64,000 nt of DNA from an uncultured Magnetospirillum sp. (GTDB lineage Bacteria > Pseudomonadota > Alphaproteobacteria > Rhodospirillales > Magnetospirillaceae). Below, in pieces: positions 10,715-61,674 of this stretch (positions within the stretch are counted from its first letter, which is position 1; every line of letters starts with the position of its first letter). Under the pieces are notes generated by a model. That model searched no databases. It saw nothing but the letters and a program-made list of their open reading frames with translations, and had not been told where the DNA came from. The DNA lies in assembly GCF_903853455.1 (NCBI RefSeq), contig NZ_CAINTR010000008.1, forward strand, positions 62,001 to 126,000, given 5' to 3'. The translations under genes and the position numbers were made by a program.

Positions 10715-10720
10715 GATGGG

Positions 10721-11902: not shown

Positions 11903-11909
11903 GGCCGCC

Positions 11910-12086: not shown

Positions 12087-12095
12087 ATGGTCCTC

Positions 12096-21852: not shown

Positions 21853-21860
21853 GGCCGGGG

Positions 21861-41485: not shown

Positions 41486-42553
41486 TTAAGCCAACGGCGA
41501 ACCGGCCCCGAAGAACTCGTCGTAATCGCCGTTGGCCTTGGCGAAATCGTCGAGCCGGCCGATGTCGAGCCAGTATTCCCGGATGGGAAAGGCCACCACC
41601 TCCTCGCCGTCATCCATGACCTGTTGCAGCAAGGTGGTCATGTCGCACCGCTCGCCCGCCGTCAGGCGGCGCAGGGTGGCGGGCTCCAGCACATAGATGC
41701 CGGCGTTGATGAAATTGGTCAGCGACGGTTTTTCCTGCAGCCGGCTCACCCGCGAATGCTCGACCTCGACCACGCCATAGGGCACCTGGATGGTGTATTC
41801 GCGCACGCACATGGTGGCGGCGGCGCGATGCTCCTGATGGAAGTCGAGCAGGGCGCGGTAGTTGACCGAGGTCAGCACGTCGCCGTTCATCACCAGGACC
41901 GGATGCTCCGCCGGCTGCGGCAGAACCCCCAGGGCGCCGGCGGTGCCCAGCTTGCTGTCCTCGTGCAGGTAGGAAATCTCCAGGCCCAGGCGCGACCCGT
42001 CGCCGAAGGTCTCCTGGAACTTCTCCGCCATGTAGTTGACCGCCAGGAACACCCGCCGGAAGCCGAACCCCGCCAGTTGGACCAGGATGGTTTCCAGCAG
42101 CGGCCGCCCGCCCACCGGCAGCAGCGGCTTGGGGGTGGTGGCGGTCAGCGGCCGCAGCCGCTCGCCCAGTCCGCCCACCATGAGAACCACCGCGTTGGGC
42201 AGGTCGTCGGCGGCGACGAACTCGCTTTCGGTCTCCACCCCCACCACCACGCCGTCGTGGTTGACCAGCGGAATGTGGCGCAGCTTGCGCGACCGCATCA
42301 GCATCAGCCGCTCGTGGGCGGTGCTGGCGGTGGATGCGGTCAGCGGCTTGGGGTTCATGATCACCGTCACCGGGTCTTCCAGGCGCACGCCGCGCAGGAT
42401 GCCGCGACGGATGTCGCCGTCGGTGATGGTCCCCAGCAGGCGGCGCCCGTCATCCACCACCAGACAGATCTGGGCCGCCGACCGGTCGAGACTCTTGATC
42501 GCCTCGATGATGGGCAGGTCGGCGGCGATGAGGATGTCGGGCCAGTTCTTCAT
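41486..42553 (-). CDS. ptmE: CBS-domain sugar-1-phosphate nucleotidyltransferase (PtmE-like)
   Basis: A 355-residue enzyme from ATG 42553 (ATGA overlap). Residues about 1-115 are a CBS pair (LIAADLPIIEAIKSL, LLGTITDGDIRRGILRG, RHIPLVNHDGVVVGVE). Residues about 120-350 are an NTP transferase with MVGGLGERLRPLTATTPKPLLPVGGRPLLE and VMNGDVLTSVNY. This architecture matches Campylobacter PtmE, which makes GDP-glucosamine for legionaminic acid. It is at the end of the ACP/FkbH operon, next to LegC/G/I/F homologues, supporting that role. A UTP or CTP specificity cannot be excluded. Confidence 0.8.
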   Translation of the reverse strand: MKNWPDILIAADLPIIEAIKSLDRSAAQICLVVDDGRRLLGTITDGDIRRGILRGVRLEDPVTVIMNPKPLTASTASTAHERLMLMRSRKLRHIPLVNHDGVVVGVETESEFVAADDLPNAVVLMVGGLGERLRPLTATTPKPLLPVGGRPLLETILVQLAGFGFRRVFLAVNYMAEKFQETFGDGSRLGLEISYLHEDSKLGTAGALGVLPQPAEHPVLVMNGDVLTSVNYRALLDFHQEHRAAATMCVREYTIQVPYGVVEVEHSRVSRLQEKPSLTNFINAGIYVLEPATLRRLTAGERCDMTTLLQQVMDDGEEVVAFPIREYWLDIGRLDDFAKANGDYDEFFGAGSPLA

Positions 42554-43572
42554 GATGGGGCGTTCAGTGTTCCGCTGGAGGAGTCGGTGATTACCGCATG
42601 GGCCGCCGCCAGAGTCCATGGACACGGATCGGCCCCCGCCGATTTCGGCAGGTCGTTGGTGTCGAGGCGCGGCAGGACGAAGCGGGTCGCCGGACCGGGT
42701 TCGGCCAGGGCCGTCCGGGTGGTCACCGCCGCCTTGAAGTCCAGCCTGGCCAGGATGGCCACGGTGTCCTCGGTGAACTCGCCATAGGGATAGCACATGC
42801 TGCGATAGGCCGGCGCCGTCCCCACCGCCGCCAGCAGCCGCAGCGAGGCGGCGATGTCCTTTTCCTGCTCGGCGGGGGTCAGGCGGCTCAGCCAGTAATG
42901 GGAGGCGCCGTGCGACCCCACATGCATGCCGGCCGACACCATCAGCCGCAATTGCTCCACCGAGACATACAGCCCCTCGGCGAAGGCGGTCTCGTCGGCC
43001 GAGACGTGGCGGGCGAACAGCTCGGCGGTCACCTGGGCGCGCAGCGCCTCGGGCAGGGCCTGCTGCAACATGCGTTTGACGTAGCTGACCTCCACCGGAT
43101 CGTAGCGGTTGGCGTGATAGTTGCCTTTACGAAACGAGTCCAGGCCGGGCAGGCCGAATTCGGCCGCCCGCTCGACGCAGGCGCGCTCGACGGCGGCGAC
43201 CAGATCGTCGGGCGCGGCCCCCGAGGCCAGGATGAAGTGGATCTTGTTGACGTCCAGCATGGCGCGCTCCAGCACCACCTTGGAGGGCGGGAAGAAGGCG
43301 CCGGTCAGGCCGCGCGCCGCCAGCCGGGGAAAAACATAAGTGTAGTGGTCGAGATAGCCGTCGTCGAAGGTCAGCAGCACCGCCTGGGGCGGCAATTCGC
43401 CGCGCCCGTCCAGGGCGTCGATCACCGCTTCCATGGAGACCGGGTTGTAATGGCGCGCCAGATAATCCAGCTGCTGGTCGAACAGCGCCAGGTCCAGGCC
43501 CTTGATGGCGGGAAAGGCGCTGCGCCCCAGCGGCCGCACATAGTGGTACATGACGATCGTCAGCGGCGTCAT
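42550..43572 (-). CDS. Polysaccharide deacetylase family protein (NodB fold)
   Basis: A 340-residue carbohydrate esterase 4-type protein. The first motif is LLTFDDGYLDHYTYVFP (catalytic Asp) and the metal His motif is HVGSHGASHYWLSRL (HxxxH). YHYVRPLG near the start and MCYPYGEF also fit the family. It has an insert of about 90 residues between the two motifs. No signal peptide is seen, so it may act on a cytoplasmic sugar intermediate, for example removing an N-acyl group before a different acyl group is added. It is ATGA-coupled on both sides. Confidence 0.85.
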   Translation of the reverse strand: MTPLTIVMYHYVRPLGRSAFPAIKGLDLALFDQQLDYLARHYNPVSMEAVIDALDGRGELPPQAVLLTFDDGYLDHYTYVFPRLAARGLTGAFFPPSKVVLERAMLDVNKIHFILASGAAPDDLVAAVERACVERAAEFGLPGLDSFRKGNYHANRYDPVEVSYVKRMLQQALPEALRAQVTAELFARHVSADETAFAEGLYVSVEQLRLMVSAGMHVGSHGASHYWLSRLTPAEQEKDIAASLRLLAAVGTAPAYRSMCYPYGEFTEDTVAILARLDFKAAVTTRTALAEPGPATRFVLPRLDTNDLPKSAGADPCPWTLAAAHAVITDSSSGTLNAPS

Positions 43573-44918
43573 GATCCCATCCCCTGGACGCGGCGGATAA
43601 TGGGCAGCATGACGGAAACCGGCTTGGCCGCCGCCACTTTCACGAAGCTGCGGGTCTGGCGGGAATCGATGCGCGGCAACCGCTCCACCACCATGCGCAG
43701 GCGGGGAAACTTCCGCTCAAGGGCGGCGCACAGCCCCTCGCCAGCCTGCTTGGCCAGGGCGTATTCCAGCATGTCGGCCGGCGGCTTGGCCACCGCGACG
43801 CTGGAGGGATAGAACACCGTCAGCGGCGCGGCGGGCCGCAGCTTCGTCAGGCCGCGCATCAGCTCGTAGAAGCCATCGACATAGACCGCGGCGAAATCGG
43901 CGAAATCCTCTGCCTGATACGGCTCCAGCCGGCGGCGGAAGATGCGCGGACTGGCGAAGTAGTAGACCTGGCCGCCGCTCCAGCCCAGCCGGACCAGCTC
44001 GGCCAGTCCCGCCGCCGGATCGGTGACGTCGAGGCGCACCTGCCCGACCGACCGATGGCCGGTAACCACCGGCTCGGCCCCGCCAGCCGCCAGCAGCCGC
44101 GCCGTGGTCGCCCCCAGGCCGGAGCCGCCGCCCACCACCAGCGGCGTCTGACCGGCGAATTCCCCCGGCGCCACCAGACCGGCGACGTCCTCATCCTCTT
44201 CCGGGGCCTCGGGCGCGCCGGCCGAAGCCGCCACCGTGCCGGCAAGGCCGCCGCCCTCCACCGCCAGGGTCACCCGGCTGAAACGGCGGTCCAGCTGGGT
44301 CACCCGGTAACGCAAGGTCCCGTCGCTTTTCCCGGCGAACGTCACCGCCAGATCGGCGAAGACGCTGTGCAAGCCGGGGCATTCCATCCCCACCAGGGTG
44401 GACAGCCCCGCCAACCCGGCCAGCGCGGCTCCGCCCACCGCCCGGGCCAGCCTCGGGAAAGCCTCGGCCAGGGGTGCGGCGGCGGGCAGGGCCATCTCGC
44501 CGCCGCGGTCGGTCATTTCCGCCGGGGACAGAGCGCGGGGAGCGGATGGAAGCACGCCGGCCGGCGGCGGCTCCGCCTCGGCGGCAGGCGGCCCGAAGAC
44601 GAGATCGAGCCGCGCCATCACTTCGTCGCGGGCCAGGACCATCACCACCAGACCGCCCTCGGTCGGCGTCACCTTGGTCTCCAGCCGGTCGCCCAGCAGC
44701 ACCGGCCGCACGAAGGTGACCGCCAGCCGGGCCAGCCCGCGCCCGTCCACCACCTGATCCAGCAGTCCCAGCACCAGATGCATGCCGTGCACCACCACCC
44801 GACCGGGATAGACGGTGGCGGCCCAGTCCGGGTCCACATGCAGGGGGTTGCGATCCCCCGACAGGGCGGCGAAGCGGTGCTGATCCGCCAGGGTGAAGAC
44901 CCGCTCGGGCGTCGTCAT
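43569..44918 (-). CDS. MaoC/hotdog dehydratase-hotdog-ketoreductase fusion
   Basis: A 449-residue three-part enzyme from ATG 44918. Residues about 1-115 are a MaoC-like hydratase with FAALSGDRNPLHVDP and GRVVVHGMH. Residues about 140-235 look like a second hotdog (LVGMECPGLHSVFADLAVTF). Residues about 245-449 are an SDR/ketoreductase with VVGGGSGLGATTARLL, YPSSVAV and the YxxxK motif YALAK. This is the chemistry for reducing and dehydrating, or hydrating, a short acyl chain on a carrier. With ACP, FkbH and GNAT in the same coupled operon it should build the acyl group placed on a sugar. The first start beyond this is shadow of the GNAT. Confidence 0.82.
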   Translation of the reverse strand: MTTPERVFTLADQHRFAALSGDRNPLHVDPDWAATVYPGRVVVHGMHLVLGLLDQVVDGRGLARLAVTFVRPVLLGDRLETKVTPTEGGLVVMVLARDEVMARLDLVFGPPAAEAEPPPAGVLPSAPRALSPAEMTDRGGEMALPAAAPLAEAFPRLARAVGGAALAGLAGLSTLVGMECPGLHSVFADLAVTFAGKSDGTLRYRVTQLDRRFSRVTLAVEGGGLAGTVAASAGAPEAPEEDEDVAGLVAPGEFAGQTPLVVGGGSGLGATTARLLAAGGAEPVVTGHRSVGQVRLDVTDPAAGLAELVRLGWSGGQVYYFASPRIFRRRLEPYQAEDFADFAAVYVDGFYELMRGLTKLRPAAPLTVFYPSSVAVAKPPADMLEYALAKQAGEGLCAALERKFPRLRMVVERLPRIDSRQTRSFVKVAAAKPVSVMLPIIRRVQGMGS

Positions 44919-45970
44919 GCCCCCACCTCGTCCAGCATGTTGGGGCGATCCTGGTCGGCGTCGCCCTTGCAGATCACCCGCCGGCCGGCGGGGCCGCGCA
45001 GGCTGTAGAGCAGCGGCACGTTGCGGGGTTCGAACGGCTCGAAATGGCCGGGCAGGACCAGCCCCTCCACCGCAGCGCAATCCACCAGCCCTGCCGCCCG
45101 CAGCTCGTCGTCCAGGCCACAGCAATAGAAATCCAGGTATTCGGCGCCGGTGTCGCGCAACAACCCGGCCAAAGCCGGCCCCGCTCCCGCCAGGACCTCG
45201 GGGGCGCCGAGGAAATCCACCACCCGCAGGGCGACGGCCCCGTCATGGGCGCAGAGCCGGGTGACGACCAGACCGGCCAGACCGCCCCGGCGGGCGAGGA
45301 AAACCCGGTAATCGTAGAAGGGATGGGCGAGGTAGCGGCTCTCCACATAGGCCCGGGTCTTGAGCGGCACCTGCGGCGGCGCATCCAGACCCAGCCCCTC
45401 GGTGGCCGCCCGGAAATCGCCGCGCGACAGCGGGTGCAGCACCGTCTCGCCGGACGACGGCGGGGTGGCGAAGCCGGCCGGCAGACGTGCCAGGGCGTAA
45501 TCCCCGATGGCGGGGTTGACCAGACAGAACCGGGTCAGCAGACCGGTGGCGTAGCCCAGCGCGTCGTAGAGGCCCCTCGTGGCTGGATTGAGGCCGGTGG
45601 TGCCGATCCAGGCCTCGGGATGGGCCTTCTGCAACCACCGCAGCAACGCCAGACCCAGGCCGTGGGCGCGATCCGGCCGCACCTTCCAGGTGGTCAGCCA
45701 CAGCGTCTCGCGCCCGGCGCCGGTCAGGGTGGAATCGTAGCGGCTGAGCGGGATGTAGCCGAGCATGCCGACGATGCCCTCGGCCGCGTCGCGCGCCACC
45801 ACGAAATTGCAGCGGCCGGCTGCGGGTTCGGCATGCTGCCAGTCGAACAGGGGACGGCTGCGGGCCAGGACATGACGGGCCGACCAGTGGTCGCGGATGA
45901 ACCCCATCACCGCCTCGGCCTCGTCGGCCCGGCAGAAATCCAGCACCGTGGAGGCCTTGGCCGCGCTCAT
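44915..45970 (-). CDS. GNAT-fold acyltransferase, enlarged
   Basis: A 351-residue protein from ATG 45970, about twice the size of a simple GNAT. The acyl-CoA region near residue 95 reads TTWKVRPDRAHGLGLALLRWLQ, with TTGLNPATRGLYDALGY after it. The C-terminal half has a second GNAT-like stretch with RVFLARRGGLAGLVVTRL and FYCCGLDDELRAAG. It may transfer the acyl group assembled on the ACP onto the amino sugar. It overlaps FkbH and the MaoC-ketoreductase gene as ATGA. Confidence 0.76.
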   Translation of the reverse strand: MSAAKASTVLDFCRADEAEAVMGFIRDHWSARHVLARSRPLFDWQHAEPAAGRCNFVVARDAAEGIVGMLGYIPLSRYDSTLTGAGRETLWLTTWKVRPDRAHGLGLALLRWLQKAHPEAWIGTTGLNPATRGLYDALGYATGLLTRFCLVNPAIGDYALARLPAGFATPPSSGETVLHPLSRGDFRAATEGLGLDAPPQVPLKTRAYVESRYLAHPFYDYRVFLARRGGLAGLVVTRLCAHDGAVALRVVDFLGAPEVLAGAGPALAGLLRDTGAEYLDFYCCGLDDELRAAGLVDCAAVEGLVLPGHFEPFEPRNVPLLYSLRGPAGRRVICKGDADQDRPNMLDEVGA

Positions 45971-47616
45971 GGGCCGGACTGGATGGCGGCGGGTTTGGCG
46001 TAGGGCCGGGCCGCATCCCAGGTGAAGAGATTGGGCTCGGATTCGGCGAAGCCCGACTGGCGCCAGAACTCCAGGCAGGGATGGTTGCGCTCGGTGGGGA
46101 TGGCGCGGGCCAGAACCCGCTTGGCTCCGGCGGCCCGCGCCGCCTCCACCGCCAGATGCAGCATGTACGGCTCCACCTGCCGGCCCATGGCGCGGCAACT
46201 GAGCAGGTAGTCGGCGATCTCCAGGTCGTCGCCCCGCCGCTCCCAACTGATCAGGCCGGTGAGGCCGAGATCGCCGAAGCGGTCGGCGACGCCGAGCGTC
46301 ATCACCTGGCGGCCCTCGCCCTCCGCCACCCAGGCCAGCAGCTCGGTCTCGGTCAGGCGGCGGGTGCGCAGGTTCAACTGGTTGGTCTTGTTAAGCAGTT
46401 GGACCGCGCGCTTGAGGTTGACCTCGTCCAACGGCGCCGCTTCCACCCTGATCTCCAGCGAGGCCAGCCAGTCCTCCAGGGAGGTGAAGGCGGCGACGCT
46501 GTCTTTACGCTGGCGCTCCACCACATACATGCCGGTGCGGTTGCGGTCTTCGGCGGTGATGGCGGCCTGCTCGAAACAGTCCAGCCGGCGCAGGGCGTCG
46601 CCGTAGAGGGTCGGGTCCTTGGGCCAGTCGGGGACCAGCACCTCGGGCAGGGCTTCGGCGACCCGGCCGCGCTCGGCGGGGTTATCGTCGATGAACACCA
46701 CCGACGACAGCCCCAGATTGAGCTCGGCCACCAGATCGGCCACGTTGCGGGCCTTGTCGGTCCAGTTGATGCGCCAGCCAGCCAGATCGCCGCGGCGCAG
46801 CACCATGGCGGGATGGTTGTCGATGGCGTCCAGCGCCACCGCCTCGTCGTTCTTGCTGACCAGCGCCACTTGGATGCCGCGCCGGGTCAGCGCCTTCAGC
46901 GCCTTCTGGAAATCGACGAAGGCCTCGCCCACATGGTCGTGGCCGCCCAGGCGCAGCTTCCGCCAGCCGACCTCGCCCACCACGCCCCCCCACATCGTGT
47001 CGTCCAGGTCCACCACCACCAGCTTGCGGCTTTGGCCCAGAGCGCCGCGCAGCGCCGCCTTGACATCGCGCGCCGCCGCCTGGCAGACCGGTTCGGTGAA
47101 TGGGCATTTGAGGGCGAACCAATGCTTGGCCGAGCGGGGACTCCCGTGGCCCGCCTCCAGCCAGCGGCCGGCATCCAGCAGATGGACGCCCCTGGCCCCG
47201 GCCAGCGCCTCGGCCAGCCGCGCGTTCATGCGGGCCAGCACATAGGCGGGACCCATCGGACTCCAGTCCAGCATCCCCAGGCCGCGGTCGTTGCGCGACG
47301 GCACCAGGGTGGCGACCAGCACCAGCGTCTTGCTGTCGGCAAAGCGGCGGATCAGTTGGGCGAAGGCCTCGGTCTCGGCCAGGAGGGCGTCCAGGTCGGC
47401 CGCCTCGCCGTCCAGCAGGCCGGCATAGCGCGGCGACACCCCCTCGGGCCGCGCCCACACCACCCCGACCCCGGCGGATGAGGGCGATTGCAGCGCCTGG
47501 AACAACTGGCCGAACGGGGCCTTGGCGACGGTGCAGACCGGCGTGGTCTGGTCGGCGGCAAGATAACGGCCGAAAACGTCGGTGTTGAAATCCGAGACCA
47601 GCTGGATTTCCGTCAT
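45967..47616 (-). CDS. FkbH-like HAD-IIIC protein (glyceryl-ACP-type loading enzyme)
   Basis: A 549-residue FkbH-family protein. After an N-terminal SGNH-like part, the HAD core starts with KLVVVDLDDTMWGGVVGEVG near residue 195, followed by LVSKNDEAVALDAI and FIDDNPAERGRVAEALP. The C-terminal GNAT-like domain carries LLNKTNQLNLRTRRLTE and ends in an NHPCLEFWRQSGF region. FkbH enzymes take 1,3-bisphosphoglycerate, dephosphorylate it and load glyceryl onto an acyl carrier protein. The ACP gene is directly upstream with ATGA overlap, which fits. Other HAD-IIIC roles are possible. Confidence 0.88.
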   Translation of the reverse strand: MTEIQLVSDFNTDVFGRYLAADQTTPVCTVAKAPFGQLFQALQSPSSAGVGVVWARPEGVSPRYAGLLDGEAADLDALLAETEAFAQLIRRFADSKTLVLVATLVPSRNDRGLGMLDWSPMGPAYVLARMNARLAEALAGARGVHLLDAGRWLEAGHGSPRSAKHWFALKCPFTEPVCQAAARDVKAALRGALGQSRKLVVVDLDDTMWGGVVGEVGWRKLRLGGHDHVGEAFVDFQKALKALTRRGIQVALVSKNDEAVALDAIDNHPAMVLRRGDLAGWRINWTDKARNVADLVAELNLGLSSVVFIDDNPAERGRVAEALPEVLVPDWPKDPTLYGDALRRLDCFEQAAITAEDRNRTGMYVVERQRKDSVAAFTSLEDWLASLEIRVEAAPLDEVNLKRAVQLLNKTNQLNLRTRRLTETELLAWVAEGEGRQVMTLGVADRFGDLGLTGLISWERRGDDLEIADYLLSCRAMGRQVEPYMLHLAVEAARAAGAKRVLARAIPTERNHPCLEFWRQSGFAESEPNLFTWDAARPYAKPAAIQSGP

Positions 47617-47906
47617 GCGGCAAGCCGCTCCAAAATCAGGTCGGCCAGGGCGGCGGGGCTGCGCAGCCCGCCGGCGTCCTCGCCGAAATCGCTGTCGTCC
47701 AGCAGGCCGATCTCGGCACCGGCCAGAGTGGAAACCCGGCTCTCCACCGCCAGGATCAGCGTCACCAGCGCCAGCGAATCCAGGGCGCCGCCCTCGCCCG
47801 CCAGCAGCAGGTCGGGGGTCTTGGCCAGTTGCTCGGTCTCGGAGCGCAGGCCGTTCACCACGTCGATCGCCTGATAAACGATGTCCAGCGCGGTCGCCCT
47901 ATCCAT
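47613..47906 (-). CDS. Acyl carrier protein
   Basis: A 97-residue carrier protein from ATG 47906 (GAGG six bases upstream). The phosphopantetheine site is GGALDSLALVTLI (D-S-L) near residue 45, followed by an acidic helix and a C-terminal LADLILERLA helix. It carries the acyl group made by FkbH and the MaoC-ketoreductase. It is the first gene after promoter P2 and ATGA-coupled to FkbH. Confidence 0.88.
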   Translation of the reverse strand: MDRATALDIVYQAIDVVNGLRSETEQLAKTPDLLLAGEGGALDSLALVTLILAVESRVSTLAGAEIGLLDDSDFGEDAGGLRSPAALADLILERLAA

Positions 47907-47954
47907 AGACAGCCTCAAGCAGTCGAGAGTGAAATTTCCGGCCCGAATGGGGCG

Positions 47955-47984
47955 CTTATAGCCCGTTCACCGGATGAACGTCAA
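47955..47984 (-). promoter_or_regulatory. Promoter P2 with inverted-repeat operator
   Basis: Minus strand: -35 TTGACG (47984-47979), 18-bp spacer, -10 TATAAG (47960-47955). The inverted repeat GTTCAC-CGG-ATGAAC occupies 47965-47979, at the same position as in P1 and P3. The inferred start point is near 47948, about 40 bp before the ACP start. It overlaps the last codons of the methyltransferase upstream. Confidence 0.75.
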
Positions 47985-48835
47985 GCCGGGGCGCCGCTTT
48001 TGCCGGCGGGCGTCTTGACCGCCTCGGCGAAGACCGACCACTGGGGATGGCCGGTGTCGAAGCCGACGATGCGGCCCAGGGAGACCACATGCTCCAGGCC
48101 GAGGAAGTTGCCCTCGCCCCGCATTTCGGGCACCTGGCTGCCTTGCGGCCCGGTGCGGATCACCTGGGTGAAGCCGGCCGCCTTCAGCATGCGCTCCAGC
48201 TTGGGATAGTTGAACCAGTTGATGTGGTTGCCGCCATTGGCGATCTGGGTCTCGCGCGGCACCAGCCCGGTGTATTTGTCGGCGAAATCGTCCTTGGACA
48301 GGGACTGGAGGTCGGCGCGGACCTCCTCCAGCGGCGTCTGGCCGGCCATGCCGGTGGCGAAGGCGCGCAGGAAGGCCCATTCGATCTGGTCGAGCTTGTA
48401 GCGCTGATACTTGAACACCTCCATGTCGCGGCGGAAATAGGCGTCGTAGAGGATGTCGAAATCGGGCATGGACAGCCGCACCACCCCACCCGGCGCCAGA
48501 CAGCGATACAGCTCGGCGAAGATATGGTCGCAATATTCCTGGGGAATATGCTCCAGGGTGTGGGCCGAGTAGAAATACCGCACCGAGCCGTCGGCGAACG
48601 GCAGGGGGTCGTGGGTCATCAGGTTGACGTTGAAATCGACGTAGTCGAGCTTGTAGGGGTAGGACCCGGTCTTGTAATCCAGGCAGGTCCAGCCGGGACG
48701 GCAGAAATAGCCGCCGCCGATGTTGACGCGAAGCCCATCCTTGGGCGTTCCCGCCAGCTTCTTGGCCAGCAGCAGGATGGGCAGCAGGATCTTGTGCTCG
48801 ACCACCAGCCGCAGATACCGCAAGAAACCCGCCAT
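47981..48835 (-). CDS. SAM-dependent methyltransferase (type 11)
   Basis: A 284-residue enzyme with an N-terminal hydrophobic patch (HKILLPILLLAKKL) that could touch the membrane. The SAM region is VNIGGGYFCRPGW, an altered motif I, followed by DPLPFADGSVRYFYSAHTLEHI, YRCLAPGGVVRLSMPDFD and KLERMLKAAGFTQV. ATG 48835 has AGGAGAG upstream. It ends the operon led by the regulator; promoter P2 begins in its last codons. With the FkbH/ACP genes next door, O-methylation of a glyceryl group is one option. Confidence 0.82.
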   Translation of the reverse strand: MAGFLRYLRLVVEHKILLPILLLAKKLAGTPKDGLRVNIGGGYFCRPGWTCLDYKTGSYPYKLDYVDFNVNLMTHDPLPFADGSVRYFYSAHTLEHIPQEYCDHIFAELYRCLAPGGVVRLSMPDFDILYDAYFRRDMEVFKYQRYKLDQIEWAFLRAFATGMAGQTPLEEVRADLQSLSKDDFADKYTGLVPRETQIANGGNHINWFNYPKLERMLKAAGFTQVIRTGPQGSQVPEMRGEGNFLGLEHVVSLGRIVGFDTGHPQWSVFAEAVKTPAGKSGAPA

Positions 48836-48875
48836 TCGTTCTCTCCTGTCCAGGCGACCGGATATAACACAAGCC

Positions 48876-50672: not shown

Positions 50673-51361
50673 CAGCCCCGATCCGCCAGCAGCAGCTCGG
50701 CCAGCCGGAAGTCCAGGACGCTGTCGATGTCCACCGAACGTTCGGCCGGCATGACATAGCCGACCGTGCCCTCGGCCATGAAGGTCAGCGACTGACGGAA
50801 CCAGGGAATCTTGGCGACGAACACCGCCCCGTTGGCGGCGAAGGCGGTGGGCAGGTCCTGACGCCGGGTGACGCCGCCGGACTCCAGCAGCCGCGACAGC
50901 CGGCCCTGCTCGTCCATGCGGTACATCCAGTAGGGCGACTTGGCCGCCTCGGTCACCCCGACGCAGGCGGGAGCGTCGGCGGCGACGCAGGCGGCCAGCG
51001 CCGCTTCCAGGTCCTCGGCCAGCCGCAGCGGCGAGGTGGGCTGCAGCAGCACCAGCAGGTCGAACGCCTCGTCCAGGGCGTCCAGGGCATGGATCACCAC
51101 CGGCGCCGAGGGGGTGTCGTCGCGGGCCAGCTCGGGCGGACGCACGAAGGGAGCCTCGCAGCCAGCCGCCACCGCCGCCGCGATGATGGCGGGGTCGTCG
51201 GACGAGATCACCACCCGGTCGATAGAGGGCGCCGCCAGGGCCTGCTCCACGCTCCAGGCCACCAGCGGCTTGCCACCCAGCGGCCGGATGTTCTTGCCCG
51301 GCAGCCCCTTGGAGCCGCCGCGCGCGGTGATCAGGGCGAGAACCTTGCGTCCGGCGATCAT
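50672..51361 (-). CDS. legF: CMP-nonulosonate (legionaminate/sialate) synthetase
   Basis: A 229-residue acylneuraminate cytidylyltransferase. The CTP motif is LITARGGSKGLPGKNIRPLGGKPL; LLVLLQPTSPLRLAEDL and the C-terminal RSVDIDSVLDFRLAELLL are standard. It activates a nonulosonic acid with CTP in the cytoplasm. LegI, LegG and LegC homologues are in the same operon. Distinguishing legionaminate from neuraminate or pseudaminate specificity is by context only. Confidence 0.87.
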   Translation of the reverse strand: MIAGRKVLALITARGGSKGLPGKNIRPLGGKPLVAWSVEQALAAPSIDRVVISSDDPAIIAAAVAAGCEAPFVRPPELARDDTPSAPVVIHALDALDEAFDLLVLLQPTSPLRLAEDLEAALAACVAADAPACVGVTEAAKSPYWMYRMDEQGRLSRLLESGGVTRRQDLPTAFAANGAVFVAKIPWFRQSLTFMAEGTVGYVMPAERSVDIDSVLDFRLAELLLADRG

Positions 51362-51368
51362 AATTCTC

Positions 51369-52037
51369 TCATTTCCGGCACGTGATCAGCCATTCGCGCA
51401 CCTCCCTGGTGCGGTTGCGGTCGGTGCGGATGACGTAATCCAGGGCGATGTCGGGGAAGACGCCGTAGAGGCCGGGGATCTCCTCCTCGGCGGTCAGGCG
51501 GATCAGGCCATATCCCTTGTTGAACGGGCCGTCGGGGATTTCCAGGAAGGTGTTGGGCTCGCCCTCCATCCTGCGGCCGGTGGCCTCGCCGCTGGTGCCG
51601 GTCATGAAGGCCTTGGAGAACAGCAGCCCGCCGGGTTTGAGCACCCGGTGGGCCTCGGCGACGATGCGGCGCGAATCCGCCAGCGTGTTGGCGTAGATGC
51701 ATTCGATGTCCAGCACGCAGTCGAAGCTGGCATCGGCGTAGGGCAGCTCCATGGCGTCGCCCTGGTCGAGGCGCGCCGCCAATCCCCGCTCGGCCAGCCG
51801 CTCGGCGGCGCGGTCCAGCCCGACCCGGCTGCCGTCCAACCCGGTGGCGTCGAAACCCTCGCCGGCCAGGAACACCATGTTGGCGCCGGCGCCGCAGCCG
51901 ATTTCGAGGAATTTCACCGCCTTGCGATCAGGGGCACCGAAATAGGTGCGCCCGATGAACCGCACCAGCTCCTCCGGGGGATATTTCCCCCAGTCCTTGG
52001 CGCTGAATACGTCGTCCCAGCCAGGATTCCACATCAT
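51369..52037 (-). CDS. Class I SAM-dependent methyltransferase
   Basis: A 222-residue methyltransferase. Motif I is KFLEIGCGAGANMVFLA, followed by ATGLDGSRVGLDRA, FDCVLDIECIYANT and HRVLKPGGLLFSKAF. It starts at ATG 52037 with ATGA overlap to the FemAB-like gene and lies 7 bp before legF. Its place inside the nonulosonate operon suggests methylation of the nonulosonic acid or its acyl group. Substrate unknown. Confidence 0.85.
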   Translation of the reverse strand: MMWNPGWDDVFSAKDWGKYPPEELVRFIGRTYFGAPDRKAVKFLEIGCGAGANMVFLAGEGFDATGLDGSRVGLDRAAERLAERGLAARLDQGDAMELPYADASFDCVLDIECIYANTLADSRRIVAEAHRVLKPGGLLFSKAFMTGTSGEATGRRMEGEPNTFLEIPDGPFNKGYGLIRLTAEEEIPGLYGVFPDIALDYVIRTDRNRTREVREWLITCRK

Positions 52038-53080
52038 CGATACCTGTATTTGAGAAAGCGTCCGCCGAACCGTTCGACCAGATCGGGATGGTCTTGCGCC
52101 CAGCCGGCGCAGACCGAATCATAGGCGGCACGGTCGATCATCACCTTGCCGAAGCGGAAGGTGGTCCGCTCGGGCGAATAGCCCGCCTTGAAGCGCAGCA
52201 GGCTGTCGTCGGCAGCGGCGGTGCGGCCGCCGCCATAATGCAGCCGCTCACGCCCACCGCCCAGCAGGTCCATGGTGACGGCGTGGCGCAGCAGGTTGTT
52301 GGGGCCGAACGCCGTGTAGGCCTTCAGCGACGACGACAGATGGTAATGGGCCCAGCGCGCCGACAGCAGGATCAAGGCGCCGCCCAGCACTTCCCCCTCC
52401 CGCTCGGCCAGGTAAACCCGCCACGAATTCGCCCCCAGGCTGGGGATGGCGCGGAAATAGTCGTCGCCGAAGAAGTAATCCTCGTGGGCATCCAACTCGC
52501 GCATATGGGTCTCGTAGAGACGGGCGAAGACCTCCAGCGCCGCCTGATCGGCGCGCCCGGTCACCACCACCCCGGCCTGCTCGGCCTTACGCACCTTGCG
52601 CCGGGTCTCGGAGGCATAACCGGCCAGCACGGTGTCGCGGTCCTTGGACAGGGTCAGGGCCACGGTCTGGCGGTCGTCGATCACCGTCACCGCCCCATGC
52701 GCCGCCCAGCGGTGGTTGTCCAGCAGCGGGTGAAAGCGGATGAAGCCGCAGACGACGCCACGGGCGCGGCAATGCGCCACCAGTGCCTCCCACGCCGCCG
52801 CCAGAAACGCCGCGTCGTCGCTGGTGGACAGCGGCCCGCCATAGCCGTAGGCGGTCTCGAAGTCGAACAGCGGCCGGTCGGACTGGCTTTCGATCTCCCG
52901 CACCAGCCAGGGCAGCAGGAAGGTCTCGCCGCCCTGCTCGAACACGAACAGTTCGTTGACGTCGCCCGGCCGGGCGTAGAGGGCGGCGTAGGCGGGACGG
53001 AAATAGACGTCGGCGAGACCGCCCAATCCATCGAGCAGGCGGTTCCAGGACCCGTGATCTTGGATCAGGCGGACGCTCAC
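52034..53080 (-). CDS. FemAB/BioF2-like GNAT acyltransferase
   Basis: About 348 residues from GTG 53080 (GTGA overlap with legI); ATG 53095 is an alternative. The fold is the two-GNAT FemAB type: VYFRPAYAALYA, FIRFHPLLDNHRWAAHG, RRKVRKAEQAGVVV (a typical FemAB arginine/lysine stretch), LGGALILLSARWAHYHLSSS and LLRFKAGYSP. Such proteins make amide bonds, often from aminoacyl-tRNA or acyl-CoA donors, to amino sugars or peptides. In this operon it could N-acylate the nonulosonate precursor. Confidence 0.8.
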   Translation of the reverse strand: MSVRLIQDHGSWNRLLDGLGGLADVYFRPAYAALYARPGDVNELFVFEQGGETFLLPWLVREIESQSDRPLFDFETAYGYGGPLSTSDDAAFLAAAWEALVAHCRARGVVCGFIRFHPLLDNHRWAAHGAVTVIDDRQTVALTLSKDRDTVLAGYASETRRKVRKAEQAGVVVTGRADQAALEVFARLYETHMRELDAHEDYFFGDDYFRAIPSLGANSWRVYLAEREGEVLGGALILLSARWAHYHLSSSLKAYTAFGPNNLLRHAVTMDLLGGGRERLHYGGGRTAAADDSLLRFKAGYSPERTTFRFGKVMIDRAAYDSVCAGWAQDHPDLVERFGGRFLKYRYR

Positions 53081-54111
53081 CGCAGGTCGGCCCATTGCAG
53101 CGGCTCGTCCTCGGCCAGGGCACGGTTGACGGTGAAGCCGGCCAGCCGGTCCAGGTCTTCGGGCTCGATGCCGCCGCCGGGGCGCTTGCAGGTCAGCATC
53201 TCAGGCCGCAGCACGGTGCCGGCGGCGATGGGTACCAGGGCCACCACGCCGCGGCGGATGCCGTTCATGTTGGCGATCTCGGCCTTGGTCGGGCGCTTGA
53301 CGCCGTCGCCCAGCATGGCCTCGATGCGGCGGATGGAGGCCACATAGGCAGCCAGCCCGGCCGGGTCCAGCGAGGCCTGATGGTCGGGACCGGGCAGCGA
53401 GCGGTCGAGGGTGAAGTGCTTTTCCACGATCGCCGCCCCCATGGCCACGGCGGCCAGCGAGGCTTCCGAGCCCAGGGAATGGTCGGACAGGCCCACCGGC
53501 AGGCCGAAGGCATGGCCCAGCGTCACCATGGCGCGCAGGTTGATCTGGTCGTCGGGGGCGGGATATTCCGAAGTGCAGTGCAGCAGGGCCAACGGCCCGA
53601 CGCCGCCTTTGCGCAGCGCCGCCACCGCCTTTTCCACCTCGCCCAGGGTGGACAGGCCGGTGGACAGGATGGCGGGACGGCCGGTACGGCCGATAGCCTC
53701 CAGGTACTGAAGATGGGTGACCTCGGTGGAGCCGATCTTGACGATGGGCATGTCCAGCTCGCCCACCAGGAAGGCCAGGCTGTCGAAGCCGTCGGGGGTG
53801 GACAGGAACAGGATGTTCCGGCTCTCGGCATGGGCCTTCAGCTCGCGGAACGCCGGATAGGGCAGGGCCAGCCGGCAGGACAGCTCGTAGCGGCTTTCCG
53901 CCGCGTCGGTGGTGGTCTCCAGATAGTCCACCTTGTAGGCGAACTTGCCGGTGATCTCGCCCGGTCGCCAGGTCTGGAACTTGACCGCGTCGGCCTTGGC
54001 CTCGGCGGCCACGTCGATCAACCGCTTGGCGCGGGCGATGTCGCCGTCATGGTTGACGCCGGCTTCGGCGATGATGAAGGCACGGCCGGCAGTGGCATAG
54101 GGCAGGGTCAT
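53077..54111 (-). CDS. legI: Legionaminate/N-acetylneuraminate synthase
   Basis: A 344-residue NeuB-family enzyme that condenses a six-carbon amino sugar with phosphoenolpyruvate. The TIM barrel has IIAEAGVNHDGDI, VKFQTW, FLSTPDGFDSLAFL, VKIGSTEV, HCTSEYPAP and GLSDHSLG, with the metal residues in KHFTLDRSLPGPDH. The C-terminal SAF/antifreeze-like domain starts at RRGVVALVPIAAGTVL. It is ATGA-coupled to legG. The family also contains NeuB and PseI; the LegC partner and PtmE homologue favour legionaminic acid. Confidence 0.88.
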   Translation of the reverse strand: MTLPYATAGRAFIIAEAGVNHDGDIARAKRLIDVAAEAKADAVKFQTWRPGEITGKFAYKVDYLETTTDAAESRYELSCRLALPYPAFRELKAHAESRNILFLSTPDGFDSLAFLVGELDMPIVKIGSTEVTHLQYLEAIGRTGRPAILSTGLSTLGEVEKAVAALRKGGVGPLALLHCTSEYPAPDDQINLRAMVTLGHAFGLPVGLSDHSLGSEASLAAVAMGAAIVEKHFTLDRSLPGPDHQASLDPAGLAAYVASIRRIEAMLGDGVKRPTKAEIANMNGIRRGVVALVPIAAGTVLRPEMLTCKRPGGGIEPEDLDRLAGFTVNRALAEDEPLQWADLR

Positions 54112-55277
54112 GGCGAGGGGGTATCCACGAAGCTCTTGCGGATCAGACCGTCGAGCGGATGGGTGGCGAGGATGTCGCGGATGCGCTCCGAGGCATGGCC
54201 GTCGCCGAAGGGGTTGACCAGCCCGGCCAGTCCGGCGCGAAACCCGGGCGACAGCAGCCGGCGCAGAGCGGCGGCGATGGCGGCGGCTTCGGTGGGGCAG
54301 TCGATGATGGAGGCGGCGCGCAACCGGCCTTTCTGGCGGTCGCCGATATTGACGGTGCCGATGCCGAAGCTGGGCACCTCGATCAGGCCGGAGGAGGAAT
54401 TGCCGACCACGCCGGAGACCAGCGCCAGGGCCGACAGATAGCCCTGATGGCCCAGCGACTTGACCGCCACGGCACGGCCAGGGCGCGTCGCCACGAAAGC
54501 CTCCACGGCGGCGGCGATGGCGCGGCCGCCGGCATCGGCATTGACCCCGGTGAAGATCAGCCGGACGTCGTCCTCGATCCCGGCCAGGGCGGCCAGCAGC
54601 TCGGCCACCTGACGCTCGGGGGCCAGGGCCGACAGGGTCTCGGGATGGAAGGTGACCAGCAGCGAGCGCTGGCCCAGGTCCAGCCCCAGCCGCGCCTCCA
54701 GCTCGGCGCGCGGCAGACGCTGGCCGTCGCGGATGGCGTCCAGCCCGGTGGAGCCCACCACGAACACCCGCTCCGGCGCCTCGCCCATCTGGACGATGCG
54801 GCGGCCATAGGCCTCGATGGCGGTGAAATGGAGGTGGGCCAGCTTGGTGATGGCGTGGCGGATGGCATCGTCCACCGCGCCTTCGGTCAACTGTCCGCCG
54901 GCGATATGGGCCAACGGCAGGCGCAGCGCCATGGCGGCGCTGGCGGCACCCAGCATCTCGTAGCGGTCGCCGAACACCAGGACGAGATCGGGCGTGAGGC
55001 GGGCGAAGGCCTCGGCCAGGCCCATGGTGGCCAGGGCCAGCGACTTGGCCATGCCGAGGCCGCTGTCGGAGGCCAGCACGATCTCCACCCGCTCGGCGAT
55101 GGCCACGCCCTCGGCCTCGATCTCGGTGACCGTCATGCCGAATTCGGGAGCAAGGTGAGTGCCGGTGACCACCACCAGCGGCTCGGTCCGCCCGTCCTCG
55201 GCCAGCAGCCGGATCAGCCGCGACAGCAGGCCGTATTCGGCCCGCGACCCGGTGACAATGGCGATCCGGCGCTTCAT
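54108..55277 (-). CDS. legG: UDP/GDP-sugar 2-epimerase, hydrolysing (LegG/NeuC-type)
   Basis: A 389-residue GT-B-fold epimerase that releases UDP (or GDP) while inverting C-2, giving the substrate of LegI. Seen are IVTGSRAEYGLLSRLI, VFGDRYEMLGAASAA, HIAGGQLTEGAVDDAIRHAITKLAHLHF, LVTFHPETLS and GNSSSGLIEVPSFG. Length and motifs match hydrolysing enzymes rather than the non-hydrolysing WecB type. It sits between legI and the AMP-ligase with ATGA overlaps. Confidence 0.88.
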   Translation of the reverse strand: MKRRIAIVTGSRAEYGLLSRLIRLLAEDGRTEPLVVVTGTHLAPEFGMTVTEIEAEGVAIAERVEIVLASDSGLGMAKSLALATMGLAEAFARLTPDLVLVFGDRYEMLGAASAAMALRLPLAHIAGGQLTEGAVDDAIRHAITKLAHLHFTAIEAYGRRIVQMGEAPERVFVVGSTGLDAIRDGQRLPRAELEARLGLDLGQRSLLVTFHPETLSALAPERQVAELLAALAGIEDDVRLIFTGVNADAGGRAIAAAVEAFVATRPGRAVAVKSLGHQGYLSALALVSGVVGNSSSGLIEVPSFGIGTVNIGDRQKGRLRAASIIDCPTEAAAIAAALRRLLSPGFRAGLAGLVNPFGDGHASERIRDILATHPLDGLIRKSFVDTPSP

Positions 55278-56632
55278 TCGAACGTCACGATACCGCGCAG
55301 GTCCATGCGCTGGTCCAGATAGCGGTGCTTGCCGATGCGGGTGCGCGGAATGTCGTCCACCAGCTGCACCTCGATGTGGAATCCGGCCAGGATGGCGCCG
55401 ATGCGCCGTTCCAGCAGGGCCTTGACCACCGCCGGATCGTCAGCGGCCAGTTCGGCCTCGGGCTGGATCAGGATGGTCAGCGCGCCGGCCTGCTCCTGGA
55501 TCACCCGGAACTCGCGGATGCCCTTCCAGTCCATGTCGTTGTAGTTGAACACCGCCGGGGCCAGCGGGGTGGGATGGCCGGCGGCGTCGATGACGAAGTC
55601 CTGGAAGCGGCCCTCGACCCCTTTCAGGATCTTGTAATGGCGACCGCAGGGGCAGTCCTGGCTGTCACCGAGATAGCCGATGTCGCCGGTGCGGTAGCGG
55701 ATCAGCGGCATGGTGGGATTGTTGAAGCCGGTCACCACCATCTCGCCGCGCCCGCCCGGCTCGGTGACGTCGCGGCCCTGCTCGTCCAGCAGTTCCACGA
55801 TCCCCACCTGGGGCAGGAAGTGCAGGGCGTCGGAGTGCTGGCAGGGAAAGCCGGCGGCGCAGGCCTCGGTGTGGCCGAAGATGTTGATCAGCCGGGCCTG
55901 GAAGGCGCGCTCGATCATGGTGCGCTGGCCGTCGGTCAGATATTCGCCGTCGCAGGCGATGGTGCGGATGGGCCGGATCTCCAGCCCGTCCTGCAGGATG
56001 TACTTGGCCAGCGGCAGGATGGAGGACGGCCGCGTGTGGATATAGCGCGGCGCGAAGGCGTTGATCTCGGCCACATAGGCCGGGGCGGTCTCGGCGGTGA
56101 TGTGGTAGCACGACATCACCAGCTTGCGGCCGTCCTCCACCCGCCAGTAGCGGTTCTCGGCCAGGATCTCGGGGGCGAGCTTGTCGCCGTAGAGCCGCAC
56201 CGAGCGCCAGTTGAAGACGTCGAGGCCAAACGTCTCCATGTAGTGGTTGGTGCAGGCCTTGTCGCGGGCCAGGAAGTCGTCGTCGTACCAGATGGTCAAG
56301 GGCGTGCCGGTGCTGCCGCCGGTGGTGCGGTGGCGCAAAGTGGCGCGGTCCGCGTTGTCGGCCAGGAAGGCGTCGGGATCGGCCTGGATCGCCCGCTTGT
56401 CGATGATGGGAAAGCGCTTGAGGTCGGCCAGGGTGACGATGTCGTCGGGTCCGAACCCGGCCGCCGCCATGGCGCGGCCATAGGCCGGCACCCTGGCATG
56501 GGCGTGGCGCACCAGCCGCCGCAGGGAATTCAGCTGGTACTCGTCCTGCTGCCGGCGCGACCAGAACTGGCTCTGCTCGAGGAAGATCCGGCGTTCGACG
56601 AAGATCGGATTGGAAAAAGGATCGGCGCTCAC
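55274..56632 (-). CDS. AMP-dependent ligase, CapK/phenylacetate-CoA ligase-like
   Basis: A 452-residue adenylate-forming enzyme from GTG 56632 (GTGA overlap with legC). The ATP loop is TGGSTGTPLTIWYDD near residue 100, followed by IACDGEYLTD, INIFGHTEACAAG, MPLIRYRTGDIGYL and a C-terminal cap IPRTRIGKHRYL. CapK-like proteins occur in polysaccharide clusters with uncertain roles. Here, in the middle of the nonulosonate operon with ACP and GNAT genes nearby, activation of an acyl group for N-acylation is plausible. Confidence 0.83.
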   Translation of the reverse strand: MSADPFSNPIFVERRIFLEQSQFWSRRQQDEYQLNSLRRLVRHAHARVPAYGRAMAAAGFGPDDIVTLADLKRFPIIDKRAIQADPDAFLADNADRATLRHRTTGGSTGTPLTIWYDDDFLARDKACTNHYMETFGLDVFNWRSVRLYGDKLAPEILAENRYWRVEDGRKLVMSCYHITAETAPAYVAEINAFAPRYIHTRPSSILPLAKYILQDGLEIRPIRTIACDGEYLTDGQRTMIERAFQARLINIFGHTEACAAGFPCQHSDALHFLPQVGIVELLDEQGRDVTEPGGRGEMVVTGFNNPTMPLIRYRTGDIGYLGDSQDCPCGRHYKILKGVEGRFQDFVIDAAGHPTPLAPAVFNYNDMDWKGIREFRVIQEQAGALTILIQPEAELAADDPAVVKALLERRIGAILAGFHIEVQLVDDIPRTRIGKHRYLDQRMDLRGIVTFE

Positions 56633-57798
56633 CGTTCGCCCTCCCCGGCAAGGCGTGGACTGGACGGAATGTTGATCAGCCGGGCGGCGACGCTGTCGGT
56701 CACCTTCAACTCCATGCGTGGGCAGTCGGCGTACATGGGCAGGTGGTGCATGGGAGTCCAGGCCGGCCGGCATTGCAGGCCGCGCTGGTTGGACAGGGTC
56801 AGCACCGGCTCCAGCAGGGCTTCGTTGCCCGGCTCCAGCAGCGCCACGTTGAGCCAGTAATTGCTGCGGCCGAAATCAGTCTCGACGAAGGCGCGGATGC
56901 CGGCCAGCGGCGCGAAGGCGGCATGATAGCGCCCGGCCAGCAACCGCTTGCGCTCGAGGAAACCGGGCAGCCGCTCCAACTGGGCGCAGCCGATGGCGGC
57001 GTTGACGTTGGGCAGGCGGTAGTTGTAGCCCACCATGTCGTGGCGGAATTCGAACGGATGGGGCTGCTTGGCGGTGGTGGTGAGGTGCTTGGCCCGCTTG
57101 GCCAGCTCGGCGTCGTTGGTGAGGATGGCGCCGCCGCCGCCGGTGGTGACGATCTTGTTGCCGTTGAAGCTGAGCGACGCCAGCTTGCCGTGATTACCGG
57201 TGTGGCGACCCTTGTAGGTGCTGCCCAGGCTTTCGGCGGCGTCCTCCACCAGCGGCAGGCCGAAGCGCTCGCACACCGCCACCAGCGGATCCAGATCCAC
57301 CGGATGGCCGAAGGTGTGCATGCAGACCACGGCGCGGATCGGCCGCCCGGTCAGGCGGTTGACGACACAGCCGTCGCCGGGACGGGCGATGTCGGCCAGA
57401 TAGTCCGCCAGCCGGGCCGGGTCGAGGCCCAGGGTCCGCTCCTCGATCTCGGCGAAATGGGGCGTGGCGCCGCAATAGGCCACGGCGTTGGCGGTGGCGA
57501 CGAAGGTCAGCGACGGGATGATCACCTCGTCGCCGGAACGCACCCCGGTCAGCAGCAGGCCGGCATGCAGGGCGGCGGTGCCGTTGACCACCGCAACCGC
57601 GAAGCCGGCGCCGGTAAACTCGGCCAGCATCTTTTCGAAGCGGTCCACATAGGCGCCTACGGTGGAGACCCATTCGGTGTCGAGGCATTCCTTGACATAG
57701 GTCCACTCGTTGCCGGCGATCTCGGGGGCGTGCAGCAGCGCCTTGCCGCCGGTGACGCTTTCGATGGCGGCGACCACCTGTTCGGCGGTAAGCGTCAT
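56629..57798 (-). CDS. legC: LegC-like PLP-dependent sugar aminotransferase
   Basis: A 389-residue DegT/DnrJ/EryC1/StrS-type enzyme from ATG 57798. It has AVVNGTAALHAGLLL, EVIIPSLTFVATANAVAYCGA, LVEDAAESLGSTYKGRHTG, the Schiff-base Lys in SLSFNGNKIVTTGGGGA, and MVGYNYRLPNVNAAIG. The N-terminal extension (EQVVAAIESVTG) and C-terminal INIPSS fit the LegC branch, which aminates C-4 of a UDP-4-keto-6-deoxy-HexNAc. The last residues PRLAGEGER look like read-through into an intergenic repeat. The matching LegB dehydratase is not in this window. Confidence 0.85.
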   Translation of the reverse strand: MTLTAEQVVAAIESVTGGKALLHAPEIAGNEWTYVKECLDTEWVSTVGAYVDRFEKMLAEFTGAGFAVAVVNGTAALHAGLLLTGVRSGDEVIIPSLTFVATANAVAYCGATPHFAEIEERTLGLDPARLADYLADIARPGDGCVVNRLTGRPIRAVVCMHTFGHPVDLDPLVAVCERFGLPLVEDAAESLGSTYKGRHTGNHGKLASLSFNGNKIVTTGGGGAILTNDAELAKRAKHLTTTAKQPHPFEFRHDMVGYNYRLPNVNAAIGCAQLERLPGFLERKRLLAGRYHAAFAPLAGIRAFVETDFGRSNYWLNVALLEPGNEALLEPVLTLSNQRGLQCRPAWTPMHHLPMYADCPRMELKVTDSVAARLINIPSSPRLAGEGER

Positions 57799-61021: not shown

Positions 61022-61648
61022 TTAAGCCGTTTTTACGCCGATGGCGTCTTCGGATTGGCTGACAACGCACTGAACCTCGAGCAGGGGCAGCGGCAGCACC
61101 CGCTCGGGCGGCATCAGGCCGGCGAGGCGCTCCCAGGCGGCCTGCGGATTGGTCAGGTCGGCCAGGATCACCGCGTCGAGCCGGCCTTTGGCCGCCAGTT
61201 CGGCGGCGATGGCGGCGATGGGCCGCTCGGGGTTCACTTCCACCGGCCCTACCGTGTCGATGGGGAATTCGCGCGCCGCCAGGATGGCGATCTCGGCCAG
61301 GTCGCCGGTGCCGCACACCGCCACCCGCCGCCAGCCCTTGGCCTCGCAGATGCGGAAAACCCCCTCGCACTGGCCCTTGGCGTCGCGGAAGAACTGGAAG
61401 GAATAGGACAGGTAGCGGGCGACCAGGGCGCTTTTTTCCGCCAACCCGCTGGGCGTCAGGTAATAGGCGTAGCGGTTGGTCGGCACCGAGCTGACCTTGA
61501 CGTAACCCTTGCGGATGCAGCGGCGCAGATAGGAATTGGCCAAGCCCAAGGCGATGCCAAGCTCGTTGGCCAGCCGCCGCTGGGTGACGTTGGCGTCGGT
61601 CTGGATCAGCTTCAGCATGTCCAGCGTAAGGCGACCTTCCTTTTCCAT
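61022..61648 (-). CDS. Winged-helix transcriptional regulator (MarR/EPS-type), probable local regulator
   Basis: A 208-residue protein from ATG 61648, which follows TAGGAGCGGC. The winged helix is at about residues 6-60: LDMLKLIQTDANVTQRRLANELGIALGLANSYLRRCIRKGYVKV, then a YLTPSGLAEK wing, much like the EPS-associated MarR-type regulators. Residues about 95-200 form a Rossmann-like domain (VAVCGTGDLAEIAIL, AVILADLTNP) that may sense a nucleotide sugar or cofactor. Its own promoter P3 carries the inverted repeat also found at P1 and P2, so it is the best candidate binder. Autoregulation and repression are inferred from operator position. Confidence 0.85.
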   Translation of the reverse strand: MEKEGRLTLDMLKLIQTDANVTQRRLANELGIALGLANSYLRRCIRKGYVKVSSVPTNRYAYYLTPSGLAEKSALVARYLSYSFQFFRDAKGQCEGVFRICEAKGWRRVAVCGTGDLAEIAILAAREFPIDTVGPVEVNPERPIAAIAAELAAKGRLDAVILADLTNPQAAWERLAGLMPPERVLPLPLLEVQCVVSQSEDAIGVKTA

Positions 61649-61674
61649 GCCGCTCCTAGGGAAAACCGTATGGG

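Follow-up and report, generated by a model that had tools for sequence, protein, structure and literature searches.

Which sugar is made by an operon that has the genes of the legionaminic acid pathway and no LegB? We addressed this question for a stretch of 64,000 nt (hereafter the window; positions 62,001 to 126,000 of contig NZ_CAINTR010000008.1) from an uncultured Magnetospirillum sp., a magnetotactic bacterium. In the window, 18 co-directional genes on the minus strand (41486-61690) form an operon for a sialic acid-like sugar (nonulosonate), and the LegB slot is occupied by a short-chain dehydrogenase/reductase (SDR) of another type. We propose that the operon represents a widespread branch of nonulosonate synthesis, in which a C4-dehydrogenase similar to Cj1427 in place of LegB would lead to 5,7-diamino sugars with a 9-hydroxyl; the sugar made here would in addition be C-methylated and carry an acyl group built on an acyl carrier protein (ACP). 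We assign this reading a probability of roughly 0.45.

The SDR in the LegB slot and the operon around it

The SDR reached 56 bits with the LegB model TIGR04180 (cut-off 475), and its other NCBIfam matches were weak ones to epimerases. Its nearest solved relative was PDB entry 6vo6 (144 bits; runner-up 79 bits), which we take to be Cj1427 of Campylobacter jejuni. Cj1427 is described as a C4-dehydrogenase; it converts guanosine diphosphate (GDP)-heptose to its 4-keto form in a reaction that includes 2-oxoglutarate (PMC10680097). At the catalytic stretch, where LegB proteins of the same order have TSTSEVYG, an invariant STCSNYG was seen in 34 of 34 aligned SDR orthologues from several phyla. The Tyr-x3-Lys is retained, while the dehydratase acid/base positions are Cys/Ser/Asn in every orthologue, so that the acid and base for 4,6-dehydration are missing. 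Judged by its sequence, the SDR is of Cj1427 type in its closest relative, its Y-x3-K and the loss of the dehydratase pair, and it is predicted to be a Cj1427-like nucleoside diphosphate (NDP)-sugar C4-dehydrogenase.

Neither LegB nor its T-S-E motif was found in the operon, the SDR itself having no such motif. A search of the whole genome with TIGR04180 gave no LegB above the cut-off (best match 152 vs. 475 bits). Supply of LegB from elsewhere in the genome was rejected, as these matches lie far below the cut-off and their readable motifs are epimerase-, decarboxylase- or RmlB-like. A profile search revealed no PglD-type acetyltransferase gene (LegH) among the 18 operon genes; LegH is present in many related clusters.

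The original prediction described window 41486-57798 as a legionaminic-type operon with its own acyl-assembly genes. An open reading frame (ORF) and profile check bore out its gene list, all named genes being intact ORFs on the minus strand. The start of the operon lies beyond that range, as the genes for a MarR_EPS-like regulator, the SDR and a B12-binding radical S-adenosylmethionine (radical-SAM) protein extend it upstream to 61690. The more unusual features of the operon, namely the replacement of LegB and the radical-SAM gene, had been missed; they are located at or past the end of the earlier range. Intergenic distances range from -19 to +74 bp, with 4-bp overlaps in most cases. The genes are listed below in operon order; family calls are Pfam/NCBIfam profile scores against curated cut-offs, and structural relatives are PDB sequence matches.

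61025..61690, minus strand: MarR_EPS-like winged-helix regulator, operon gene 1 (TIGR04176 62 bits, cut-off 88; HTH_24)
59823..60986, minus strand: SDR in the LegB slot, predicted Cj1427-like NDP-sugar C4-dehydrogenase (PDB 6vo6; STCSNYG)
57798..59816, minus strand: B12-binding radical-SAM protein, predicted C-methyltransferase (Radical_SAM and B12-binding domains; CxxxCxxC at 207)
56632..57798, minus strand: LegC-family pyridoxal phosphate aminotransferase (TIGR04181 510 bits, cut-off 420)
55277..56632, minus strand: PaaK-like AMP-dependent acyl ligase (NF045666 127 bits, PaaK models 94-111 bits, all below cut-off)
54111..55277, minus strand: LegG/NeuC-type hydrolysing 2-epimerase (TIGR03568 437 bits, cut-off 236)
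53080..54111, minus strand: LegI, NeuB-family nonulosonate synthase (NeuB 280 bits and SAF; TIGR03569 393.6 vs. 399.65)
52037..53095, minus strand: FemAB/Acetyltransf_6-type GNAT, candidate acyl- or aminoacyltransferase (PF13480 45 bits)
51372..52037, minus strand: SAM methyltransferase 1 (Methyltransf_25 73 bits)
50675..51361, minus strand: LegF/PseF-type cytidine monophosphate (CMP)-nonulosonate cytidylyltransferase (CTP_transf_3 76 bits; PseF model 158 vs. 206)
48879..50672, minus strand: 598-amino acid (aa) protein, candidate glycosyltransferase (weak GT28_C)
47984..48835, minus strand: SAM methyltransferase 2 (Methyltransf_11/23)
47616..47906, minus strand: 97-aa putative ACP (DSL at residue 43; 17 acidic vs. 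6 basic residues)
45970..47616, minus strand: FkbH-domain protein, HAD-IIIC with a C-terminal GNAT-like region (TIGR01686 267 bits, cut-off 147)
44918..45970, minus strand: GNAT-like protein of 351 aa, candidate acyltransferase partner of the deacetylase (Acetyltransf_1 18 bits vs. 20.7)
43572..44918, minus strand: fusion of MaoC-type hydratase, second hotdog-like region and SDR ketoreductase, hereafter MaoC-KR (MaoC 51.5 bits)
42553..43572, minus strand: NodB-type polysaccharide deacetylase family protein (PF01522, Polysacc_deac_1, 75 bits; TFDDG and HxxxH)
41489..42559, minus strand: PtmE-type CBS and sugar-1-phosphate nucleotidylyltransferase (NTP_transferase 148 bits, CBS 43 bits)

Of the core enzymes, LegC and LegG exceed their curated cut-offs. 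LegI, with the NeuB domain present, falls slightly short of the cut-off of the Neu model, and the best model for LegF, PseF, also stays under its cut-off. A homologue of the FemAB-type GNAT adjoins LegI in loci L103/L161 and L227, and a 51% identical homologue of methyltransferase 2 sits in the SDR cluster L042. The regulator gene heads SDR- or LegB-type clusters in relatives too. Window 61762-63921 encodes a 720-aa fusion of a zinc alcohol dehydrogenase and a GFO/IDH/MocA oxidoreductase.

Exchange of the SDR and LegB among nonulosonate clusters

In a sample of 248 genomes from the order, 14 had the SDR (E<=1e-60), 62 had LegB (E<=1e-100) and none had both. Two Paramagnetospirillum species, P. 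caucaseum and P. kuznetsovii, are carriers of the SDR. The hypergeometric P for this exclusion was 0.016, and 0.04 inside the genus, relatedness being ignored in both values. Comparison of neighbourhoods showed the gene order SDR-LegC-LegG-LegI-LegH-PtmE-LegF in some clusters and LegB-LegC-LegG-LegI-LegH-PtmE-LegF elsewhere. In a further genome of the same genus (G185, locus L213) the order is LegB-LegC-LegG-LegI-LegF-PtmE-GalE-cyclase-dehydrogenase, its downstream part matching that of the window.

A wider scan of 84,980 species genomes, one per species, gave 148 SDR loci in several phyla, and 80 of these were kept for annotation. LegB at 45% identity or more was found in none of the 80. A DegT-type aminotransferase lay near 72 of them, although identity to LegC is only ~30% for part of these enzymes, and some of the loci are of limited length; PtmE-type genes were seen near 56, LegG near 40 and LegI near 38. 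The DegT-type aminotransferase also occurs at SDR loci without LegI. Seven Bradyrhizobium loci (L140, L143-L147, L152) have a PtmE-type gene, a DegT aminotransferase and the SDR, without LegG or LegI, and perhaps belong to a pathway for a 4-amino-4-deoxy sugar other than a nonulosonate. Further variants included a cluster SDR-LegC-LegH-LegI-LegG on a contig labelled archaeal (L190, Euryarchaeota metagenome-assembled genome (MAG) NAT11), a second SDR paralogue, 32% identical, about 12 kb from the first (L106:13307-14317), and, in one of the clusters L120-L122 (regions ~10001-14000), a LegH-type gene retained although no LegC adjoins (L122).

A separate clade of SDR-linked LegC, LegG and LegI was rejected, as the SDR and LegB labels interleave on the trees. 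The label has to change 10 times on the LegC tree, 13 times on that of LegI and 16 times on that of LegG, which is fewer than with shuffled labels but far from a single split, and 4-6 exchanges are forced by well-supported branches. The SDR and LegB have been swapped repeatedly upstream of a common LegC/LegG/LegI set. Such interleaving fits a shared product or tolerant partner enzymes alike.

The synthase itself offers a point of comparison. The loop 70-85 is held to determine C4-C6 specificity, and the Neu substrate bears a C6-hydroxyl that is absent from Leg substrates (PMC7371886). Asp69 of LegI falls within this loop and aligns with residue 74 of Neisseria meningitidis NeuB. This position was polar (Asp, Ser, Asn, Glu or Gln) in 25 of 40 SDR-linked synthases vs. 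2 of 28 LegB-linked ones, the latter having mostly Gly or Ala. The pattern supports, short of proof, a different product in the SDR clusters.

Acyl and methyl genes and the destination of the sugar

The FkbH protein is well above its cut-off and, like FkbH glyceryl-ACP synthases, keeps the HAD motif (DxDxT), here as DLDDT. Its start is overlapped by the gene for the 97-aa protein, which gave no Pfam match even at E=1 and an hhalign probability of 40%; a homologue stands immediately upstream of FkbH in L150. The putative ACP assignment is based on the DSL motif, the acidity, the adjacency to FkbH and this homologue. In the MaoC-KR fusion, D22/N24-P25/H27 and S372/Y386/K390 are invariant in 7 homologues, and the ketoreductase part, weak by profile at 18 bits, keeps its Ser/Tyr/Lys. 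Homologues of the fusion occur in 7 other genomes of the 248, each with an FkbH gene within about 6 kb. In the four annotated loci of this kind a small ACP adjoins the fusion, and genes of MBOAT or SGNH type are found nearby. We therefore take MaoC-KR, ACP and FkbH to be a mobile module for acyl-ACP that is usable with other acceptors as well.

According to the original prediction, the cell removes an N-acetyl group and installs another acyl. FkbH, GNAT and deacetylase genes recur beside SDR-LegC-LegG clusters in an Opitutia MAG (L150), a Rhodobiaceae MAG (L174) and a gammaproteobacterial MAG (L139), the last additionally with a ketosynthase, a ketoreductase and a MaoC-KR fusion. Moreover, a LegB-type cluster of the same genus (L210) has a GNAT and a deacetylase between LegC and LegG, as the exchange of acyl groups predicts, with an ACP-domain protein downstream. 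This gene position suggests that deacetylation and acylation would occur at the sugar-nucleotide stage. The L210 homologue of the 351-aa GNAT-like protein is above the cut-off (26.2 bits) that the window protein does not reach. The idea of acyl exchange is strengthened by these loci; exclusive use of the acyl module for nonulosonates is not, as the trio also occurs apart from them. Two of the three MAGs have a glyoxalase-family gene between FkbH and the GNAT-like gene (L150:16995-17396 and L174:19184-19588) that is not in the window operon.

With both domains and CxxxCxxC, the radical-SAM protein is by sequence a member of the B12-dependent radical-SAM superfamily. It matches TokK (151 bits) and CysS (106 bits), and it reaches 175 bits with the KedN5 family model (cut-off 700). 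Orthologues with 46-55% identity adjoin LegC/LegG, LegF or the SDR in all 4 other genomes found (L042, L043, L044, L045). The gene is commoner in SDR genomes (8/14) than in the others (38/234). More distant relatives (~30%) abound in glycan loci across the order, whether nonulosonate genes lie within 1.5 kb or not. The gene is most simply read as one that would C-methylate the nonulosonate.

Flagellin, in which the original prediction would look for the decoration, is an unlikely target, as a separate pseudaminic acid (Pse) locus adjoins the flagellar genes on another contig, no Maf gene was found in the window and the two MptE/Maf-type genes of the genome lie elsewhere. The window itself represents a polysaccharide locus. 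For the 598-aa protein, no Pfam/NCBIfam match exceeded the cut-off; its homologues adjoin nonulosonate genes in L044, L049, L051, L103, L112 and L213, and as a protein that travels with such clusters it is a candidate transferase. The same polysaccharide locus contains two MBOAT-like/SGNH-like gene pairs, recognised by eye (window 15589-18010 and 20833-23279). Window 36018-37958 encodes a 647-aa fusion of a GT2 glycosyltransferase and a zinc alcohol dehydrogenase, which L112 and L213 likewise have downstream of GalE.

The predicted product, alternatives and known systems

At about even odds, the operon makes a CMP-activated, legionaminic acid-type nine-carbon sugar for a surface polysaccharide and departs from the Campylobacter route in three respects, namely the SDR, the acyl group and methylation. 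PtmE would make a GDP-linked amino sugar, the SDR would oxidise C4 without removal of water at C6, and LegC would aminate C4. LegG would then free the hexose, LegI add phosphoenolpyruvate and LegF activate the product with CMP, so that the sugar would retain a terminal CH2OH (C9-OH), an oxygen that is lost in standard legionaminate. This C4 oxidation without 6-deoxygenation, followed by amination, is the likeliest route to a legionaminate-type product with a 9-hydroxyl, and we slightly favour it over all others together. FkbH, the PaaK-like ligase or both would charge the ACP with an acyl unit, which the MaoC-KR fusion would shape. The deacetylase would expose an amine onto which the GNAT-like protein would move the acyl, probably before the LegG step. 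The radical-SAM protein would add a C-methyl, most likely on a sugar carbon, and the two SAM methyltransferases O- or N-methyls.

Several observations weigh against this reading. The interleaved LegC, LegG and LegI of SDR and LegB clusters are compatible with one common substrate, and the SDR clusters L120-L122 have LegG and LegI with no LegC at the locus. LegI residue 69 was chosen after a scan of all columns in which it ranked third, with only 3 independent supported pairs, and two SDR clusters of the same genus keep Gly there. By hidden Markov model, the ACP and the GNAT are weakly assigned, and the MaoC-KR/ACP/FkbH trio is also found in exopolysaccharide loci without nonulosonate genes (L053, L054, L056, L057). 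Finally, the genome encodes a PseB, over the cut-off, that could provide a 6-deoxy 4-keto sugar.

An ordinary 9-deoxy legionaminate with unusual N-acyl groups would result if the SDR were a divergent dehydratase standing in for LegB, or if the 4-keto-6-deoxy substrate came from an enzyme such as PseB. The at least 10-16 exchanges of SDR and LegB on the LegC/LegI/LegG trees (4-6 well supported), with downstream enzymes that do not separate, speak for this. Nevertheless, we regard it as unlikely, given the replaced acid/base residues in every SDR orthologue and a closest characterised relative that is not a dehydrating enzyme. PseB is standardly an enzyme of uridine diphosphate-sugars and inverts C5, which counts against supply by PseB.

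Other acceptors have to be considered for the modifications. The ACP/FkbH/MaoC-KR acyl could be destined for another acceptor, for instance through polysaccharide O-acylation by a window MBOAT, the nonulosonate genes sharing only the position; the trio keeps company with MBOAT/SGNH genes in the four loci without nonulosonate genes, and the window has two such pairs. We consider this still less probable than a stand-in dehydratase, because three unrelated genomes have FkbH, GNAT and deacetylase beside nonulosonate clusters of SDR type and the acyl genes are translationally coupled inside the window operon. Somewhat more credible, though doubtful, is action of the radical-SAM protein on a different sugar, or on a lipid, within the same polysaccharide, outside nonulosonate synthesis. 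Its remote homologues in many glycan loci are consistent with such a role, whereas the close orthologues all adjoin nonulosonate genes and the gene is enriched in SDR genomes.

In the open-licence literature we found no description of LegB replacement by a C4-dehydrogenase or of a radical-SAM protein in nonulosonate synthesis, no paper on legionaminic acid with ACP and FkbH and, judged by titles, none on nonulosonate synthesis in Magnetospirillum. If the proposed reading is true, bacterial sialic acid-like sugars include a class that retains the terminal hydroxyl, like neuraminic acid, and genome-based nonulosonate prediction through the presence of LegB/LegC/LegI is wrong or silent for clusters in several phyla. 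The SDR offers a marker gene for these that can be tested, and through the deacetylase/GNAT/ACP set the attachment of unusual N-acyl groups to such sugars would become genetically accessible.

The operon resembles the C. jejuni legionaminate pathway (PtmE, LegB, LegC, LegH, LegG, LegI, LegF) in having PtmE, LegC, LegG, LegI and LegF homologues together, and a GDP-linked route is likely. It differs in the missing LegB and LegH, in the other-type SDR in the LegB slot and in the added radical-SAM, FkbH, MaoC-KR, deacetylase and GNAT genes. With Cj1427, its closest solved relative, the SDR has a RFATAFGLSPRMRFDLTV-like stretch in common, and both are without the dehydratase acid/base; unlike Cj1427, which acts in capsular heptose synthesis without an aminotransferase, the SDR is partnered by LegC and a nonulosonate synthase. 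The radical-SAM protein shares the B12-binding and radical-SAM architecture of the methyltransferases TokK, KedN5 and CysS; it is far below the KedN5 cut-off and stands in a nonulosonate operon, in contrast to their antibiotic cluster setting.

Two genes of the C. jejuni flagellar glycosylation locus, cj1299 and cj1308, presumably encode ACPs. In the same locus cj1302, an fkbH-domain gene, lies beside nonulosonate genes (PMC7099621), and a di-O-methylglyceric acid derivative of Pse has been reported in C. jejuni (PMC3958885). The original prediction called the decoration not obviously described for this group; given these precedents, the acyl-assembly part is a variant on a known theme. The two loci are alike in an FkbH gene adjoining nonulosonate genes, with a methylated glyceryl nonulosonate known in C. 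jejuni. They differ in that the Campylobacter locus concerns Pse and flagellin, whereas the window has a legionaminate-type operon in a polysaccharide locus, with a deacetylase, a GNAT and the MaoC-KR fusion.

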